From positions 1 to 30,740 of the IMG/VR virus record IMGVR_UViG_3300006108_000041: a DNA stretch of 30,740 nt; one strand, 5' to 3'. The stretch comes from a virus. The translations under genes were made by a program, and so were the position numbers. This document shows, piece after piece, positions 16,557 to 28,620 of the stretch (the stretch's first letter is position 1; the number at the start of each line of letters is the position of its first letter). The notes below the pieces were generated by a model that ran no database searches, had not been told where the DNA came from, and saw nothing but the letters and a program-made list of their open reading frames with translations.

Positions 16557-17444
16557 TTAATCGGAATTGGCTAAAGATTCAAAATATTTGAAGTCGTCCT
16601 CTTCATCAATTTCAGGCATTCTAGATTCTTCTACCACTGGTTTCTTAGGTGCAGACTTCATTTGTTCCACTGTAGTCTTGGCAGGTACTGTTTCACCATT
16701 GAGACCTAATACTTTATCCAAACGAGATTTCAATTGATCATATGATTTGAATTCGGAATCACCAACCAAATCTTTCAAGCAATACTCTTGCTTCCAGATT
16801 TTCTCTAGTTCATCATCGTCATCCAATAATGGACTTGGTGATTCAAACTCAGACTTATCATAATTTTGATAGTTTTCGACCCTCCTAATCTTCAACTTGA
16901 AGTTAGCACCTTTCCATAGATCAAATGGATTGATTGGTGTTTCATCCTCAAACTGTGGAGACATTGCTTCAGTAATCTTATCAAAGATTTTCTTACCAAA
17001 TTTGAATAGAAATACTTTGCGTTCATTCTCTGGATTCTTAGGATCAGATACCACATAGATGTTAGAGATATAAGATAGTTTGCGTTTCTGCTTCCGTACT
17101 ACTTCTTTGTTGGCTTCAATGCCGGATGACCAAAGTTCACTATTAAATTTACAAACAACACATTCTTGATTCTTAGTTGTAAGGCAATTTTCTATATACC
17201 ATTGACCACCTGGTCCTTGGAATCCATGTGAGAAGATTTTGACCCATGGAAGGGAATCATCACCATCTGCTTCGGATGCTGGAAGGAATCGGATAGTTGC
17301 CATGCCATTTCCGCTTTTGTCGGGAACCGGACGCCACCAGTTATCTTTATTATCGGATGACTCAGGTGAAGCATTGAGAGACTTGATTGCTTCTGCTAGT
17401 TTATCTAAGTTACCGCTTTGACGCTTAAGATTTGCAAAACTCAT
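16557..17444 (-). CDS. gp32: Single-stranded DNA-binding protein gp32
   Basis: The 295-aa protein is T4 gp32-like (301 aa). The basic N-terminus SFANLKRQSGNLDKL is the LAST-type cooperativity region. The core has WWRPVPDKSGNGMATIRFLP and a zinc site H73, C87, C95, C98 (FSHGFQ, IENC, ECVVC), comparable to T4 H64, C77, C87 and C90. The C-terminus is acidic (EIDEEDDFKYFESLANSD), the usual docking tail for replication proteins. The start has a good SD (GAGG) and an AT-rich leader with few stable pairs. A TATAAATA late box lies 82 bases upstream. The helicase loader gp59 and gp33 are in the same cluster, as in T4. Confidence 0.97.
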   Translation of the reverse strand: MSFANLKRQSGNLDKLAEAIKSLNASPESSDNKDNWWRPVPDKSGNGMATIRFLPASEADGDDSLPWVKIFSHGFQGPGGQWYIENCLTTKNQECVVCKFNSELWSSGIEANKEVVRKQKRKLSYISNIYVVSDPKNPENERKVFLFKFGKKIFDKITEAMSPQFEDETPINPFDLWKGANFKLKIRRVENYQNYDKSEFESPSPLLDDDDELEKIWKQEYCLKDLVGDSEFKSYDQLKSRLDKVLGLNGETVPAKTTVEQMKSAPKKPVVEESRMPEIDEEDDFKYFESLANSD

Positions 17445-17533: not shown

Positions 17534-18014
17534 CATACATTTTCAGTATGCATATTGTGGAGAGTTCATTGCGGTGAAGCACTCCAAGACCACCTGCTGC
17601 ATTCCAATCTTTGATATTCTGCTCATCATCATCGATTAGAATAGATGTGGGTGTTGCGTATTGTGCCTTTAAGTGTTTACCTGGCACAAATATAGGATGA
17701 AAAGTAACCTGATGCGTATCCAACCAGATTTTCTTTTGTCTACTAATCTCATCATGGTATTCTGGTGATGCCGATGAAGATAACATCTCAACAGGAATAG
17801 GTAAGTCTCTAAGATATTTCAATAATGTCAATGCACCTGGAAATAAATCTAGTGTGGCAAAGTTTTGACCTGCAATAAACTCACGAAATTGCTGTTCATC
17901 TTTAACAGCCTTCTGTGATGATTTTGGACCATACAGTTCTTCAAATCTCTTATCAAAATCTGCTATAACACCATCCATATCTACCCATATCTTATCATAC
18001 TTATGCTTCTGCAT
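17529..18014 (-). CDS. HAD-family 5'(3')-deoxyribonucleotidase-like hydrolase
   Basis: The 161-aa protein has HAD motif I WVDMDGVIADF (D12 nucleophile, D14 acid/base), motif II in EMLSSSAS, a basic residue in the region DEISRQKKIWL, and motif IV ILIDDDEQNIKDW. This matches phage and bacterial 5'(3')-deoxyribonucleotidases, which dephosphorylate dNMPs. In a T4-like phage it could balance nucleotide pools. It overlaps the gp59 3' end by 14 bases and lies between gp59 and gp32, a slot not used for such an enzyme in T4. The exact substrate is not shown by the sequence. Confidence 0.85.
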   Translation of the reverse strand: MQKHKYDKIWVDMDGVIADFDKRFEELYGPKSSQKAVKDEQQFREFIAGQNFATLDLFPGALTLLKYLRDLPIPVEMLSSSASPEYHDEISRQKKIWLDTHQVTFHPIFVPGKHLKAQYATPTSILIDDDEQNIKDWNAAGGLGVLHRNELSTICILKMYV

Positions 18015-18600
18015 GTATTAATTCCTTCAAGTAGTTCTTAAATGTATTTTTATCATATGAAAGAAAGCACTTGTACTTTAATGCTTTAATTCTAATATTA
18101 GGCCAGATCACATCATCACTAATCTTCTTGGACCACATCTCAAAGAATCCTAGTATATCATCTAGGATCACCAGAGTTTCAAATGCAATATTCTCTTGCA
18201 TAGTCTCAGTCAGCAACTTAGGATATTCACCATTCTTTACTGTAATCAATTCAGTAGGAGATGCAACTTGATCCATCAGATATACTATATCATTCTTCCA
18301 TACATATGTCAATGACTGATTGATTTTCTGCCATTTCATGTAACTATCTTCGGTCATTTCACCAATCCATCCTGCTTTACCATAAATCATATTTCCTAGT
18401 ATATAATTTCTCAATTCATCCAATGAGTATTTCCGTGATAACTTATGAAACGTGTACTTATCTTTGCGTTTCATAAAAGTATCTTTGGTGACATTAGTCT
18501 TACCATGATACTTCATGAAGTTATAGGACTCAGAGGTGAAATGCAATTTCAATGCCTGGTATAAACAGAATGATTCATATCCAGAATTATCAGTAATCAT
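18001..18600 (-). CDS. gp59: Replicative helicase loader gp59
   Basis: The 199-aa protein matches T4 gp59 (217 aa), the all-helical loader that places gp41 helicase on gp32-covered forks. Shared patterns are KRKDKYTFHKLSRKYSLDEL, then NMIYGKAGWIGEM and the C-terminal AFETLVILDDILGFFE and WPNIRIKALKYKCFL. Its ATG overlaps the stop of gp33 by one base, matching the T4 order 33-59-32. Basic residues are spread along the chain, as expected for a fork-DNA binder. Confidence 0.92.
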   Translation of the reverse strand: MITDNSGYESFCLYQALKLHFTSESYNFMKYHGKTNVTKDTFMKRKDKYTFHKLSRKYSLDELRNYILGNMIYGKAGWIGEMTEDSYMKWQKINQSLTYVWKNDIVYLMDQVASPTELITVKNGEYPKLLTETMQENIAFETLVILDDILGFFEMWSKKISDDVIWPNIRIKALKYKCFLSYDKNTFKNYLKELIHAEA

Positions 18601-18821
18601 TATATTGGAAGTCTACCCTCTTTCTTCAGCAAATTCAAATTGGTTGCTTCTTCTTGTATCTTAGATTTGATGGCCTGTGATAGTAATGTGGCAGCAACTT
18701 CAATCTCTAGTCCAGTTTGCTCACAATACAAACATACTGCTTCCATCATTTCAATTCGTTTCTCTGTTGCTAATTTCATAATCATCTCAGAGAATGACTG
18801 TATTTCATCTTTAGTCGCCAT
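18600..18821 (-). CDS. gp33: Late transcription co-activator gp33-like
   Basis: The 73-aa protein lies directly before gp59, the T4 position of gp33. It resembles the short gp33 of marine T4-like phages: RIEMMEAVCLYCEQTGLEIE, AATLLSQAIKSKIQEEA, then LNLLKKEGRLPI. gp33 bridges RNA polymerase and the gp45 clamp and activates late promoters such as the TATAAATA boxes in this window. It is shorter than T4 gp33 (112 aa), which limits confidence. Its stop overlaps the gp59 start (TAATG), and it begins 8 bases after the SleB stop. Confidence 0.8.
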   Translation of the reverse strand: MATKDEIQSFSEMIMKLATEKRIEMMEAVCLYCEQTGLEIEVAATLLSQAIKSKIQEEATNLNLLKKEGRLPI

Positions 18822-18829
18822 GATATTCC

Positions 18830-19384
18830 TTATCTATAAAATATGTGATTCCCAATTTGCATTACTTTGTGATAGTTCTTCCAATCTGGTCTTACATGAA
18901 TTTCATGAAAGTATAATGCATTTAATTTAGCAAGTTTATCATGTAACACATTATTTGTCAATGCTTTTTGTGCTAATTGTACACATTGATTCCACACATA
19001 TCGATTAGTAATCTTAGGTATACTATTCGTCCATGAGAACTGGTACACCGTTTCTTTATCATTATTCTTGGTTCTTTGATATACTACACCGCAGATGGAC
19101 TTAGGATATCTATAATTGTGTACTCTATTCATAACGACCTGCCCAACTGCACGGCGACCATCATAGGACTCACCGGATGCTTCAAAGTACATGGCTTTGG
19201 CTAGACAGTCAATCTGTTTAGCATTCTCTTTGTTTGAAATTAACTCATGTATATATTGTGCTTGAAGTACATTAAGTTCTTGCTGAGTAAATTCTGCACC
19301 TGCGGACAAATGCATAGGCAAGATGGATAAAAATACAAATATAGGCGTAAAAACGATAGCAAATATTTTATTAGAAATAAGCAT
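18830..19384 (-). CDS. Exported SleB-type cell wall hydrolase
   Basis: The 184-aa protein has a hydrophobic N-terminal signal (residues about 4-30, IFAIVFTPIFVFLSILPMHL). The catalytic domain is Hydrolase_2/SleB type: DCLAKAMYFEASGESYDGRR with E68 and E72, then GQVVMNRVHNYRYPKSICGVV (in parts), YQFSW and FHEIHVRPDW. SleB-type enzymes cleave peptidoglycan. This is probably the phage endolysin or a periplasmic wall enzyme, reaching the periplasm through its own signal. The signal may be retained as an anchor, since no clear AxA site follows closely. The SD AAGGAG is strong. No holin is evident beside it. Confidence 0.88.
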   Translation of the reverse strand: MLISNKIFAIVFTPIFVFLSILPMHLSAGAEFTQQELNVLQAQYIHELISNKENAKQIDCLAKAMYFEASGESYDGRRAVGQVVMNRVHNYRYPKSICGVVYQRTKNNDKETVYQFSWTNSIPKITNRYVWNQCVQLAQKALTNNVLHDKLAKLNALYFHEIHVRPDWKNYHKVMQIGNHIFYR

Positions 19385-19421: not shown

Positions 19422-19598
19422 TTATTGCTGGGTTGTATCTCGGAAGTCTATGAGAGTTTGAATTAGATCCGATAGTTCGGATTTACTCATAGTGAGACAT
19501 TGAGAATATGAGGATTGTAAACCGATTATAAGTTTATCATATTCTTTGGTATATATCACTGATATGCAATCAGGATACTCTTTGATTCGAAAAGACAA
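19422..19598 (-). CDS. Small protein with TTG start between tmRNA and SleB
   Basis: A 58-codon frame opens at TTG (19598) with GGAG 7 bases upstream and closes at 19422. It reads MSFRIKEYPDCISVIYTKEY, then DKLIIGLQSSYSQCLTMSKS and ELSDLIQTLIDFRDTTQQ. An internal ATG would give only 22 residues and lacks an SD. The pattern of beta strands followed by SELSDLIQTLIDFRD resembles small phage proteins with an opening sheet and closing helix, but I know no function. It starts about 25 bases after the tmRNA pseudoknot and ends 37 bases before SleB, so it may share the tmRNA transcript. It is easy to miss because of its size and start codon. Confidence 0.65.
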   Translation of the reverse strand: MSFRIKEYPDCISVIYTKEYDKLIIGLQSSYSQCLTMSKSELSDLIQTLIDFRDTTQQ

Positions 19599-19611
19599 TA
19601 GTTATCTCCGT

Positions 19612-19880
19612 TGTTGTAAAAGTCAGGTTGTTTGGGTAATAAGGAACAACCTGAAAATCCCCAGAGTGATTACGCTGCTAGAGCGAATTCCTCGTAAAAT
19701 GCGTCATTTGCATTTATGGTTTTGCTTGATTTACGGTCATCGCCTACCGGATTGCCACTTTCAGTATCTTGCCCTGTCGAAACCAGGTCACCCCCATAGA
19801 ATAAAACTTATAAGATGGTGGAGATGGGCGGAATCGAACCGCCGTCCAGAACACATTCCCTACAGTAGATATACAATCAT
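19612..19880 (-). ncRNA. ssrA: Circularly permuted (two-piece) tmRNA
   Basis: Read on the minus strand, the acceptor piece comes first. It has a T arm (stem GGCGG/CCGCC at 19827-19843, loop TTCGATT), acceptor strand CATCTCC at 19826-19820 and an encoded ACCA ending at 19816. A 20-base spacer (19796-19815) follows. The coding piece starts at 19795 with GGGGGTGACCTGGTTTCGAC. GGGGGTG pairs with CATCTCC over 7 positions including G-U pairs, closing the tRNA-like end. The tag frame at 19711-19670 encodes ANDAFYEEFALAA and TAA. A hairpin (19624-19632 with 19645-19653) plus TGGG/CCCA pairing forms an H-type pseudoknot. The piece order is that of permuted ssrA genes. The exact outer ends are estimates. 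It rescues stalled ribosomes and tags proteins for proteolysis. Confidence 0.93.
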
Positions 19881-19886
19881 AATAAC

Positions 19887-19915
19887 ATTATATCATAGAA
19901 ATAATACAATGTCAA
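19887..19915 (-). promoter_or_regulatory. Perfect sigma70 promoter of the tmRNA
   Basis: TTGACA (19910-19915), exactly 17 bases, then TATAAT (19887-19892), a full consensus match on both hexamers. Transcription would begin near 19880, directly upstream of the acceptor piece. Confidence 0.92.
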
Positions 19916-19932
19916 GTAGTATTTAGTCTACT

Positions 19933-20598
19933 TTAGAAGTTCATACCAACATTGAATGCTGTAACATTGGTCAAACTATTGTTAACACGGTCTTGAATCC
20001 ATGTATTACTAACACTACCGAACACATTACTGGTGAAATTGTACTGAAGTGCTGCAATGTTTTTAACATAATGAATTGGACCACCTTCTTCAATCAAAAG
20101 TTTATCCGAAATAGAAGATTTATCGGTAAACTTATAACTTGCCCAAATACTTTCACGAAAGATCGTCTGATTCAACTGCACTGCTTCTGCTTTAGCAACA
20201 CTGGTTTCAAAACTAACTTTGGTTGTGTCACTATTAATCAATCGAAATCCATGACCTACACCGATTACTTCCATGTCTTTGTATTTACCGAACGCATTGT
20301 ACTGATATCGTGCCGCAGTCTGTAGATAGTTGCGTGAATCTAGATTATAATTAACTTTACCATATACATCATATAGATTTGTTGTGTTCTTATCGTTGAT
20401 TGACTTGTAGATAGAGTCCAAATCAACATATTCACTAAATGAACTATTCAATGGATCTTTGTGTGAATAGGATAGATTACTGTTGATTACTGTAGTAGTC
20501 CTATCAGTTGTACCACCTAGATTGATGGTCAAGTCGTCTGCGGCCAATACTGGAGTTGAAATTGCTGCTGCGATAAGTGTAAGTGCTAATTTATTCAT
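19933..20598 (-). CDS. Exported outer-membrane beta-barrel protein, DUF481-like
   Basis: The 221-aa protein begins with a signal peptide (MNKLALTLIAAAISTPVLAA, cleavage near residue 19-20). Alternating strand patterns fill the mature part (NLSYSHKDPLN, NLYDVYGKVNYNLDSRNY, ESIWASYKFTDKSSISDKLL). The chain ends in phenylalanine (AFNVGMNF), the C-terminal signal recognised by the BAM complex. The pattern fits DUF481/YdiY-type outer-membrane barrels. In a phage it may alter the surface of the infected cell, for example by blocking a receptor, but that is inference. Its start overlaps the stop of the 79-aa gene (ATGA). It ends just upstream of the tmRNA promoter. Confidence 0.75.
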   Translation of the reverse strand: MNKLALTLIAAAISTPVLAADDLTINLGGTTDRTTTVINSNLSYSHKDPLNSSFSEYVDLDSIYKSINDKNTTNLYDVYGKVNYNLDSRNYLQTAARYQYNAFGKYKDMEVIGVGHGFRLINSDTTKVSFETSVAKAEAVQLNQTIFRESIWASYKFTDKSSISDKLLIEEGGPIHYVKNIAALQYNFTSNVFGSVSNTWIQDRVNNSLTNVTAFNVGMNF

Positions 20599-21412: not shown

Positions 21413-21874
21413 TTACTTCATGTATTTCTGGTAAGCAACACGCCAATCTGTAGCGATTTCTTTTTGTGCTTGTGCTAGTGGGATTTGTCCGGAACACACT
21501 AGTGAATGCAACTTAACTTCCAATTTGTCCTTAAGATGCGCATTCCAGGTACCATCATATGGTTGCGGCCATAAGTTATTGATATCATTAGCACCTCCGG
21601 CGGTGAGTGGGATAATATGATCAATTTCACAAGACTGTGGACCAGAACAATAGCCTTGATGTGGTTGTACACCATAACGTGCATAGACTTGTTTCTTTAA
21701 AGATTCAGGTACATCACGAACAGTTGTAGTTGACCATCCTTTGGCGCAGATAACTTGAGTTGTCAACGCAGGGTCTACAACGCCAGGTGATAGTTTCGGA
21801 TCAGGCACCTCTGCGGCCACTGCGGCACCAATAGAAAGTAGTAATAGTAATGCAAATTTATTTTTACGGTTCAT
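21413..21874 (-). CDS. Exported HNH nuclease
   Basis: The 153-aa protein has a signal peptide (MNRKNKFALLLLLSIGAAVA, cleavage near residue 20). The HNH core is CEIDHIIPLTAGGANDINNL followed by WPQPYDGTWNAHLKDKLE, with D85, H86, N100 and H113 as likely catalytic or metal residues. Mature cysteines (C43, C76, C82, C127) could form disulphides in the periplasm. Similar exported HNH proteins occur in Gram-negative bacteria and some phages. A secreted nuclease could degrade DNA arriving in the periplasm, or salvage nucleotides; neither is proven. It starts 1 base after the GIY-YIG gene's stop. Confidence 0.87.
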   Translation of the reverse strand: MNRKNKFALLLLLSIGAAVAAEVPDPKLSPGVVDPALTTQVICAKGWSTTTVRDVPESLKKQVYARYGVQPHQGYCSGPQSCEIDHIIPLTAGGANDINNLWPQPYDGTWNAHLKDKLEVKLHSLVCSGQIPLAQAQKEIATDWRVAYQKYMK

Positions 21875-21875
21875 A

Positions 21876-22934
21876 TTAAGTCTCCTTTTGTACTAATTTA
21901 CCAGTTGTTCCAATCAACTCTGGATTGTTATCGAACTCTTCTTTTGTTACTACACACATAATCCCTGTATATTTGTTTTTACAAGTTACCATTCCTCTAC
22001 TGGAATGTATCAAATCTGGATTGTTATCAAACTCTTCTCGTGTTACCTTAAAGAATTCGCCTGTGTGTTTGTTCTTACAAATTATCTTTCCTTTTGCTTT
22101 TGCTGATATTTTGGCTGCGGTTTCTTTATTACCTTTATTTACACCAACTAAGTTCGGGTTAGAATGAAACTCTTCTATTGAAACATCACCAACTTCATTT
22201 GTCAATATATTTCTAGCCATTATCATACCTTTTCTTCTCTCAGAAAGTTTTGGATTCTTTCTTCCTTTAAGAATAAGTGATAACTTCTCATTCTTTCTTC
22301 CTGCGAGAATATGTACCAAATCATCTCTGGCCGCATACTCTTCTTTTGATACAGATAATTTATTGCCATCTTTATCTATACATGCCACATGTCCAGGAGT
22401 TGACAACTTAAACTTTCTATCCTTACTTAGTGCTGTCAATTTATCATTACTTTCAAACTCTTCTCGTGTTACCTTTAATCGGTTGCCATGTTCATCTTTG
22501 ACAAAAACATATCCGGCATTTACTCCTACCAAATCTGGATTACTTTCAAACTCTTCTTTGGTAACACTCAAAGTCTCATTCGTTTTGATATTCCTACATG
22601 CTACTTTATTTTTATTAATATCTTTCTGCATACCAAACTTTTCATGTGATATAGTCATATTAATATACATCTCACTCTTATGTGCATTAAGATGAAGCAA
22701 TATCTTTTTCTCTTTTGCTAATGCTTCTTCTTTTGATTCATGAGTTCTTAGTATCTTTGTAATAAAAAGATGTGGATTCTTTCTTAATTCACTATTCCAT
22801 ATTTTCTTATATTTCTTTGAGGAAACAGAACCATGATAATTTTCGTTTACAACTTTATTTACTGTGCTGTAACCGATATAGAACATCGGTAACTTGTTTC
22901 CTTTATATATTGTTAGATATGTGCAGTATTCCAT
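21876..22934 (-). CDS. GIY-YIG homing endonuclease with six tandem repeats
   Basis: The 352-aa protein has an N-terminal GIY-YIG domain (about 1-100): YLTIYKG and MFYIGYST as the two motifs, NYHGS, then WNSELRKNPHLFITKIL and KEEALAKEKKILLHLN (shown in parts). From about residue 108 it carries six units of 30-40 residues, each with a hydrophobic strand, a turn such as NKHTGE, and V(T/S)KEEFxxNPDLVG. Examples are RNIKTNETLSVTKEEFESNP, KNKHTGEFFKVTREEFDNNP and KNKYTGIMCVVTKEEFDNNP. Repeats of this type act as DNA-binding modules in homing endonucleases. The gene is inserted within an exported-protein run. A GATAAATA box lies 33 bases upstream. Confidence 0.85.
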   Translation of the reverse strand: MEYCTYLTIYKGNKLPMFYIGYSTVNKVVNENYHGSVSSKKYKKIWNSELRKNPHLFITKILRTHESKEEALAKEKKILLHLNAHKSEMYINMTISHEKFGMQKDINKNKVACRNIKTNETLSVTKEEFESNPDLVGVNAGYVFVKDEHGNRLKVTREEFESNDKLTALSKDRKFKLSTPGHVACIDKDGNKLSVSKEEYAARDDLVHILAGRKNEKLSLILKGRKNPKLSERRKGMIMARNILTNEVGDVSIEEFHSNPNLVGVNKGNKETAAKISAKAKGKIICKNKHTGEFFKVTREEFDNNPDLIHSSRGMVTCKNKYTGIMCVVTKEEFDNNPELIGTTGKLVQKET

Positions 22935-23360: not shown

Positions 23361-24008
23361 CTATTTATATGCTTTTACCACCTTCACCAATTCACCAATA
23401 TAATTCTCAGTTTTCTCTAGAAATACAAGTGGTTCATGATCGTCTACTGCCATGATGATTGCAATTTGATTCACTGGAGTACCGATCATCTCTTCCAGGG
23501 ACACTGCGTAAAATGCCGTTTGTAAAAAATAAGATGTGATATCTTCTTTCTTTTTAACTCTGGATGAAGTCTTGAAGTCAATCACGGATAATACACCGTT
23601 GTATTCTCCGATACAATCAACTCTACCAGCAACTTTTAAAGTATCCGAATACAATGCACATTCTTGATACCAGATATTGTCGATGTTATCTAGAAGTGGT
23701 CGGATAGACAGAAAGGTTTCTTTGTGATTCGGCATCACATCTTTGAGATAATCTGGATCATTATTCAGATAGGATTCGGCAATAGAGTGTATGCGTGTTC
23801 CTCTGTTGGATGCTGTGCGTGATATCCGATTGGCTTCTTCCTCACCGACTTTCTTGCGCCATGCAGCAATAGAATCTCTGGAGAGTGATGAGAGAACCGT
23901 AGTGATAGACGGATACTTCTCACCAGATGGTGTAGTATAGTATCGTTTATCGTTGATGGTTTCGGAAGTTAGTTCTGGAAGTGCTTGTGGAGGACAATAA
24001 GTGAACAT
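23361..24008 (-). CDS. RecB-like PD-(D/E)XK exonuclease
   Basis: The 215-aa protein has a YPSITTVLS start region, an RGTRIHSIAESYL helix with H74, as in RecB/Cas4-type nucleases, and the catalytic motifs GRVDCIGEYNGVL (D131) and VIDFKTSSR (D144, K146). A QTAFYAVSLEE motif V helix follows. Such proteins act in recombination or DNA degradation in T4-like phages of aquatic bacteria. A short imperfect hairpin lies upstream at 24039-24074. The start has a GAGAG sequence about 17 bases upstream but no ideal SD. Confidence 0.88.
   Translation of the reverse strand: MFTYCPPQALPELTSETINDKRYYTTPSGEKYPSITTVLSSLSRDSIAAWRKKVGEEEANRISRTASNRGTRIHSIAESYLNNDPDYLKDVMPNHKETFLSIRPLLDNIDNIWYQECALYSDTLKVAGRVDCIGEYNGVLSVIDFKTSSRVKKKEDITSYFLQTAFYAVSLEEMIGTPVNQIAIIMAVDDHEPLVFLEKTENYIGELVKVVKAYK
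23362..23369 (-). promoter_or_regulatory. T4-type late promoter TATAAATA before the exported protein
   Basis: The minus strand reads GCATATAAATAGAAAAC with an exact TATAAATA. The start codon is 26 bases downstream and an AAGGAG ribosome site lies between. The box overlaps the 3' end of the nuclease gene. Confidence 0.8.
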
Positions 24009-27831: not shown

Positions 27832-28620
27832 CTAAGCCATCTTAGAATCTTCATACTTCATTGTAGCAATAATATAGTTCTTAACCAGATCGGATCTTAG
27901 AATATCATTGACATCAAACTCAATCTTGACCACATCTGGCATGTACTTTAATATCTCAAAGAACTCAGGTAGACCTGATACGTCATTCTTTTTTCTATAC
28001 AAATCATTCTGCCTGTAATCGCCGGTCAGGATGATTTTGGATCTGCTTCCAACACGAGTAACAATTGTTGATAATTCTTGTAGATTACAATTTTCAAGTT
28101 CGTCCACAAGAATAATTGAATCATCAAATGTACAACCTCTAAGGAAACTAGTAGATAGGAACTGAATCTGTCCTTGTTCTTTTAGTCTAACATAAGCCTC
28201 TTTCTTACCAAATAGAGTCTCACAGATTTGTATGTATGGCATCTCAAATGCTTCCATTTTCTCTGCGAGTGATCCAGGTAGATATCCAATTTCTCTGGAC
28301 TGCACTGATGACCGAACAATCACCAGTCTTTTATATGGTGTACCCTTGTCTAGAACTTGTTCTAAGGCAAGATAAATTCCTATGATTGTTTTACCACATC
28401 CAGCGACACCATGTAATACGATAAACTCTTTGCCTTTTCTATAAGCATCAAAGAATAACTTCTGATTATCTGTGAGCGGTTCGAATGTTTTTAAATCATC
28501 TATCTTAATTTTTAATGCATGAGATTGCTTAGAATCTTCATAGTGTGTTTCTGATTTTGTATTCTTTACAAAGGATTGGGATGGGTCTTCTGTCGTTTTT
28601 CTTACTCGCTGTGTGGCCAT
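27832..28620 (-). CDS. phoH: PhoH-like ATPase
   Basis: The 262-aa protein has Walker A GVAGCGKT (residues 71-78) in IVLHGVAGCGKTIIGIYLAL (parts), SSVQSREIGYLPG, a Walker B ILVDELENCNLQE, and LTGDYRQNDLY as the sensor region. These are PhoH-family hallmarks, an RNA-helicase-like P-loop fold common in T4-like phages of aquatic bacteria. Its phage function is not settled; the link to phosphate stress is from the bacterial homologue. AAGGAA precedes the ATG. The phage-type basic N-terminus (MATQRVRKTTEDPSQSFVKN) is longer than the core. Confidence 0.95.
   Translation of the reverse strand: MATQRVRKTTEDPSQSFVKNTKSETHYEDSKQSHALKIKIDDLKTFEPLTDNQKLFFDAYRKGKEFIVLHGVAGCGKTIIGIYLALEQVLDKGTPYKRLVIVRSSVQSREIGYLPGSLAEKMEAFEMPYIQICETLFGKKEAYVRLKEQGQIQFLSTSFLRGCTFDDSIILVDELENCNLQELSTIVTRVGSRSKIILTGDYRQNDLYRKKNDVSGLPEFFEILKYMPDVVKIEFDVNDILRSDLVKNYIIATMKYEDSKMA

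Follow-up and report, generated by a model that had tools for sequence, protein, structure and literature searches.

The virus record analysed here (the window, 30,740 bp) carries on its minus strand, at 19929–19617, a gene for a circularly permuted tmRNA in which the acceptor piece comes first. RNAs of this class release ribosomes that have stalled and attach a tag to the unfinished proteins. Judging from the sequence, we consider it very likely that this gene of a T4-like phage is intact and encodes a probably functional tmRNA made of two pieces, of the betaproteobacterial type. When the whole window was searched with cmscan, the beta_tmRNA model (RF01850, cut-off 84 bits) matched positions 19617–19929 of the minus strand with 150.5 bits (E = 1.4e-46), and the tmRNA_permuted model (RF04321, cut-off 47 bits) matched positions 19670–19878 of the same strand over its full length (1–213) with 158.9 bits. 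The alpha_tmRNA model (RF01849) scored 68.1 bits, above its cut-off of 50 but far below the beta model, and RF01850 was the best of its clan for this gene. ARAGORN reported a permuted tmRNA (tmRNA*) at 19579–19908 with the tag ANDAFYEEFALAA and found no tRNA in the window. An earlier note had proposed a permuted tmRNA on the minus strand at 19612–19880, to be checked with covariance models; the range is essentially right, and the permuted models exceed their cut-offs by a wide margin and indicate the betaproteobacterial type.

A chance match is ruled out by an E-value in the 1e-46 range together with covariation. In 73 phage sequences, extracted with a choice of 5′ end that partly favoured pairing and G3-U70, the G3-U70 pair was present in all 73 and paired changes occurred at stem pairs 4, 5 and 6. 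When the offset was held fixed, without sliding, pairing across 20 distinct stem pairs exceeded that in every one of 2000 shuffles. The free folding energy of the window gene was no better than that of shuffled sequences (z = 0.20 and 0.33), which makes folding uninformative as evidence, and the case for a tmRNA thus rests on the covariance models and covariation. An assembly error is unlikely, since another contig, L014, matches the window with 99.97% identity along all of its 7,342 bp and has an identical tmRNA gene. A blastn search of the tmRNA gene against 50,697 phage records gave no match, which excludes a copy of any phage gene already known.

The acceptor piece (19816–19880, minus strand, with its 5′ end at about 19880) comprises, according to the RF01850 and RF04321 alignments and ARAGORN, the P2 5′ strand, the T-arm, CATCTCC, a discriminator A and an encoded CCA. 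The T-stem strands GGCGG (19843–19839) and CCGCC (19831–19827) enclose the loop TTCGATT and are followed by the acceptor 3′ strand CATCTCC (19826–19820), A73 at 19819 and CCA at 19818–19816. An intervening segment of exactly 20 nt (TCTTATAAGTTTTATTCTAT, 19796–19815, minus strand) leads to the coding, mRNA-like piece (19612–19795, minus strand; ARAGORN and Rfam models), which contains GGGGGTG, the TTCGAC core, the P2 3′ strand, a hairpin, the tag frame and a 3′ hairpin, and whose 3′ end lies approximately, by RF01850, near 19617. GGGGGTG (19795–19789) pairs with CATCTCC at 7 of 7 positions, including G3-U70 and another G-U at pair 5. The order of the pieces, the 20-base segment and the seven-position pairing agree with the earlier description. 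The G3-U70 pair is the mark of an alanine acceptor, and the window tmRNA has this identity pair as well as CCA and the T-arm. Processing of the tRNA type would be expected to remove the spacer, whose length in relatives ranges from 5 to 247 nt.

The 3′ hairpin (19623–19654, minus strand) was delimited from the RF01850 alignment, the fold and a comparison with bacterial 3′ ends. It has a 10-bp stem and the loop TCCTTATTACCC (also given as CCTTATTACCCAA), which matches CCUUGUUACCAA, an element conserved among the beta tmRNAs of bacteria. The G+C-rich terminator hairpin usual in bacteria is absent from the window gene, as judged from the compared 3′ ends. On the opposite strand, a 126-aa open reading frame (19546–19926, plus strand) runs antisense to the tmRNA and contains WWRWAESNRRPEH, which is typical of spurious translation opposite a T-arm; most likely it is no gene.

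The window is a fragment of a T4-like phage, and T4 core genes surround the tmRNA locus. The six neighbours listed next all lie on the minus strand: gp32, the single-stranded DNA binding protein (16557–17444; tblastn, 53–60% identity to cyanophage gp32), the gp59 helicase loader (18001–18600; Pfam T4_Gp59_N and T4_Gp59_C, phrog_269), a gp33-like late transcription coactivator (18600–18821; tblastn to annotated gp33 homologues in Mosig and cyanophages), a SleB-type cell wall hydrolase or endolysin (18830–19384; Pfam Hydrolase_2, 8.7e-24, phrog_938), a PD-(D/E)XK nuclease (23361–24008; Pfam PDDEXK_1) and a PhoH-like protein (27832–28620; Pfam PhoH, 3.2e-40). The window also encodes a tail tube, a tube cap and a baseplate wedge, and with these genes the T4-like assignment made in the earlier note is right. 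Close nucleotide similarity to known phages, in the 6.4-kb stretch searched, was confined to part of gp32. An HNH protein (21413–21874) adjoins a 352-aa protein (21876–22934, minus strand) that looks like the homing-endonuclease type, with its GIY-YIG-like start and its repeats of a VTREEFExNPDL-type motif.

The tmRNA gene occupies a slot that holds a gene of this kind in dozens of related phages from aquatic sources. The common order is PhoH, PD-(D/E)XK nuclease, tmRNA, SleB, gp33, gp59, NT5C and gp32, with the nuclease homologue of the relatives on the upstream side of the tmRNA. This order was found in the window and nine other contigs (L040, L042, L044, L045, L046, L048, L049, L050 and L051), some of them without parts of it, and the order with a permuted tmRNA in the slot also occurs in the isolates Mosig, HTVC008M and Melnitz. 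A pattern search for permuted tmRNAs, biased by its requirement for an encoded CCA, had matched 29 further viral contigs, and 28 of the 30 records tested, including the window, exceeded the beta cut-off. For a count independent of the tmRNA, relatives were fetched by their nuclease and by gp32 rather than by the tmRNA. Among 71 distinct contigs spanning the nuclease and gp33/gp59, 42 had a permuted tmRNA in the slot, a proportion that is not an unbiased frequency because the relatives are the best 80 by protein similarity and not a random sample. ARAGORN found 38 of these, all 38 on the same strand between the nuclease and gp33, and the other 4 were detected by covariance model only. No credible one-piece tmRNA was found in the slot in any of the 71 contigs. 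No tmRNA was seen in the slot in 29 of the 71, and the gene is therefore dispensable for some phages.

Upstream of the window gene lies a promoter of the sigma-70 type (19887–19915, minus strand) with TTGACA (19915–19910), a 17-nt spacing, TATAAT (19892–19887) and an extended -10 TG. It matches the consensus at 12 of 12 positions and is the sole such match within the 1.9 kb scanned; shuffles of the upstream stretch averaged 8.0 matches and none of 50 reached 12. Transcription from it would be expected to begin near 19880, where the acceptor piece has its 5′ end. A 12/12 promoter was found in two more slot phages and at least 10 of 12 matches in 11 of 55, so few that the promoter was rejected as a general feature of the slot. 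Directly upstream of the promoter, positions 19933–20598 (minus strand) encode a DUF481 family protein with a signal-peptide-like start, probably an outer membrane beta-barrel, which is unusual in a phage.

The tag frame (19670–19711, minus strand; ARAGORN) reads GCA AAT GAC GCA TTT TAC GAG GAA TTC GCT CTA GCA GCG TAA, that is ANDAFYEEFALAA followed by a stop, and is complete with resume codon, hydrophobic end and stop. In related phages the tag AND(D)AFYGExRLAA is kept through mostly silent codon changes: L012 and L006, which share ANDAFYGExRLAA, differ by 6 silent changes and 1 replacement, and in L236 the tag is longer by one residue. Selection thus acts on the tag frame at the protein level. 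The tags of this group, ANDAFYGEDRLAA, ANDAFYGEMRLAA and ANDDAFYGEVRLAA, occur in L012, L019, L025, L006 and L236 on tmRNA bodies of differing type and genome position and in no bacterial tag sampled; perhaps they represent a phage-specific tag spread by recombination. A Caulobacter tag considered as a model for the window tag was dropped when no literature support for it was found.

The most likely role of the window tmRNA, as far as its sequence can suggest one, would be to add capacity for ribosome rescue during infection and to mark proteins by its tag for proteolysis. The host sigma-70 polymerase would transcribe the gene. For the steps after transcription we draw on known tmRNA biology. 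Host RNase P and 3′ tRNase, the tRNA-processing enzymes, would excise the 20-nt spacer, and the acceptor and coding pieces would stay together through pairing in the acceptor stem and P2. The tmRNA would be charged through G3-U70 by host AlaRS, and host SmpB and EF-Tu would deliver it to ribosomes that had stalled on broken mRNAs. SmpB (PF01668) was absent from all 15 phage records searched, so that the host would presumably have to supply this partner. Since the tag ends in LAA, the released protein would be expected to go to ClpXP-type proteolysis. During the degradation of host mRNA, the phage would benefit by having more ribosomes at its disposal and fewer chains held up on them.

The earlier suggestions that such an RNA might free ribosomes or redirect tagging are both plausible functions. 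Redirection in its strict form, in which the phage tmRNA competes with that of the host and stalled proteins receive a phage-type tag that alters their degradation, strikes us as rather unlikely for the window. In its favour are the AND(D)AFYGExRLAA tags of several relatives, a kind absent from the sampled bacterial tags, and the R at position -4 in 11 of 54 distinct phage tags. Against it, 5 of 24 alphaproteobacterial tags likewise have R at -4, 45 of the 54 phage tags end in LAA, and the window tag ends in FALAA in the style of ordinary degrons. We give even less credence, indeed next to none, to an inhibitory decoy that jams host trans-translation. The tmRNA of phage DS6A, which lacks a coding sequence, is reported to inhibit the endogenous tmRNA in E. 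coli (PMC11915505), but unlike that RNA the window gene has an intact tag frame, resume codon and stop.

The earlier note had also taken the occurrence in a T4-like phage to imply that the gene was captured from a host with a permuted tmRNA or adapted to one. This is not supported, as the slot is common to many diverged T4-like phages whose tmRNAs score on a continuous scale between alpha-like and beta-like, and permuted tmRNAs occur in Stenotrophomonas and Acinetobacter phages too. Either the gene has long resided in this slot, then, or it is a cassette that has been exchanged repeatedly. The gene also moves, since phages with and without the slot share close tmRNAs (L017 and L021, respectively). 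Monophyly of the slot tmRNAs alone was rejected, those of L005 and L021, which lack the slot neighbours, interleaving with the slot ones. Given a slot shared by many phages and this movement of the gene, capture from the present host is not implied, and a recent event of that kind is not the best reading. That the window gene is a recently captured host ssrA without phage function, or a relic, is very improbable: close copies in phages without the slot show a gene on the move, but the slot is conserved in diverged phages, the stem covaries, the tag is intact, the promoter is strong, and the nearest sequences are those of other phages, with 80% identity to L107.

In the trees, the window groups with 10 other phages and 13 bacteria (24 rows) with support of 97/97. 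When alphaproteobacterial sequences were added, the phage and betaproteobacterial permuted tmRNAs fell on one side of a 100/100 branch, and when one-piece tmRNAs were added, the bacterial beta sequences again nested among phages in the best tree. AU tests allowed monophyly of all phage tmRNAs (p-AU 0.43 and 0.40), monophyly of the bacterial beta sequences (0.49 and 0.64) and union of the latter with one-piece tmRNAs (0.49). With all these alternatives allowed on about 150 columns, the direction of transfer is not decidable. It is conceivable, if doubtful, that T4-like phages of aquatic proteobacteria form a long-standing reservoir of permuted tmRNAs, from alpha to beta forms, and that the betaproteobacterial lineage acquired its gene from them instead of being permuted in situ.

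Strong permuted hits were present in 17 of 399 sampled Burkholderiales genomes, most of which have a one-piece tmRNA; 1 of the 17 is of alpha type and looks like a foreign contig. Two Burkholderiales genomes, the MAG G030 (L057, 6613–6925; L059, 7–371) and G279 (L075), have permuted tmRNAs with a 5-nt spacer, TCGAC, and the unusual tags ANFDIYDVQHVA and GNQPSNLQVMQQFDVPTPANGDQYLNVA. Both also contain a second, weaker hit, which in G030 is a one-piece tmRNA. Spacers of 5 nt recur in the phage contigs L010 (CCTAC) and L013 (TCTAC), and tmRNAs of this kind are possibly those of mobile elements.

A permuted tmRNA in T4-like phages is thus not an oddity of a single isolate. It sits in a fixed slot in a large share of the relatives, invariably permuted and with tags that differ, from which it seems likely that ribosome rescue is a standard part of these infections. 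The origin of the betaproteobacterial two-piece tmRNA becomes testable with more sequences.

Permuted tmRNAs of phages have been published before. In a phage database 53 two-piece tmRNAs were reported, 50 of them from marine or aquatic phages, and Methylophilales phage Melnitz was described with an alpha-type two-piece ssrA upstream of its gp33-like coactivator, for which its authors proposed roles much like those in the earlier note (PMC9004378); a 2025 tmRNA database holds 79 phage tmRNA sequences (PMC11915505). New here is the conserved slot beside gp33-gp59-gp32, and our limited literature search found no description of a multi-phage slot with mixed tmRNA types. Melnitz (MZ577097) resembles the window in being T4-like and in having a permuted tmRNA within the slot of PhoH, PDDEXK, tmRNA, gp33, gp59 and gp32. 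It differs in the type of tmRNA (106.7 bits with the alpha model and 25 with the beta model), in a spacer of 142 nt against 20 nt, and in a reported glutamine riboswitch; the window has its own consensus promoter. The Pelagibacter phages Mosig EXVC030M and HTVC008M likewise carry a permuted tmRNA in the same slot, but theirs are alpha-like (67.6 and 83.8 bits with the alpha model).

Stenotrophomonas phages DLP_6 and Marzo and Acinetobacter phage BUCT628, whose hosts we take to have a one-piece tmRNA, share the permuted form with the window, and for DLP_6 and BUCT628 the beta model fits best, as it does here; their genes, however, lie outside the T4 slot, those of the Stenotrophomonas phages among tRNA genes. 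The permuted tmRNAs of HTVC008M (L036, 5108–5449), BUCT628 (L032, 2979–3312) and DLP_6 (L033, 3940–4283) carry no annotation in the records deposited for these phages. The permuted tmRNAs of Burkholderiales agree with the window gene in the RF01850 model, the P2 layout and the 3′ loop element, but they differ from it in that most have 10-aa tags such as ANDERFALAA, the CCA is often not encoded, and a terminator hairpin is present.
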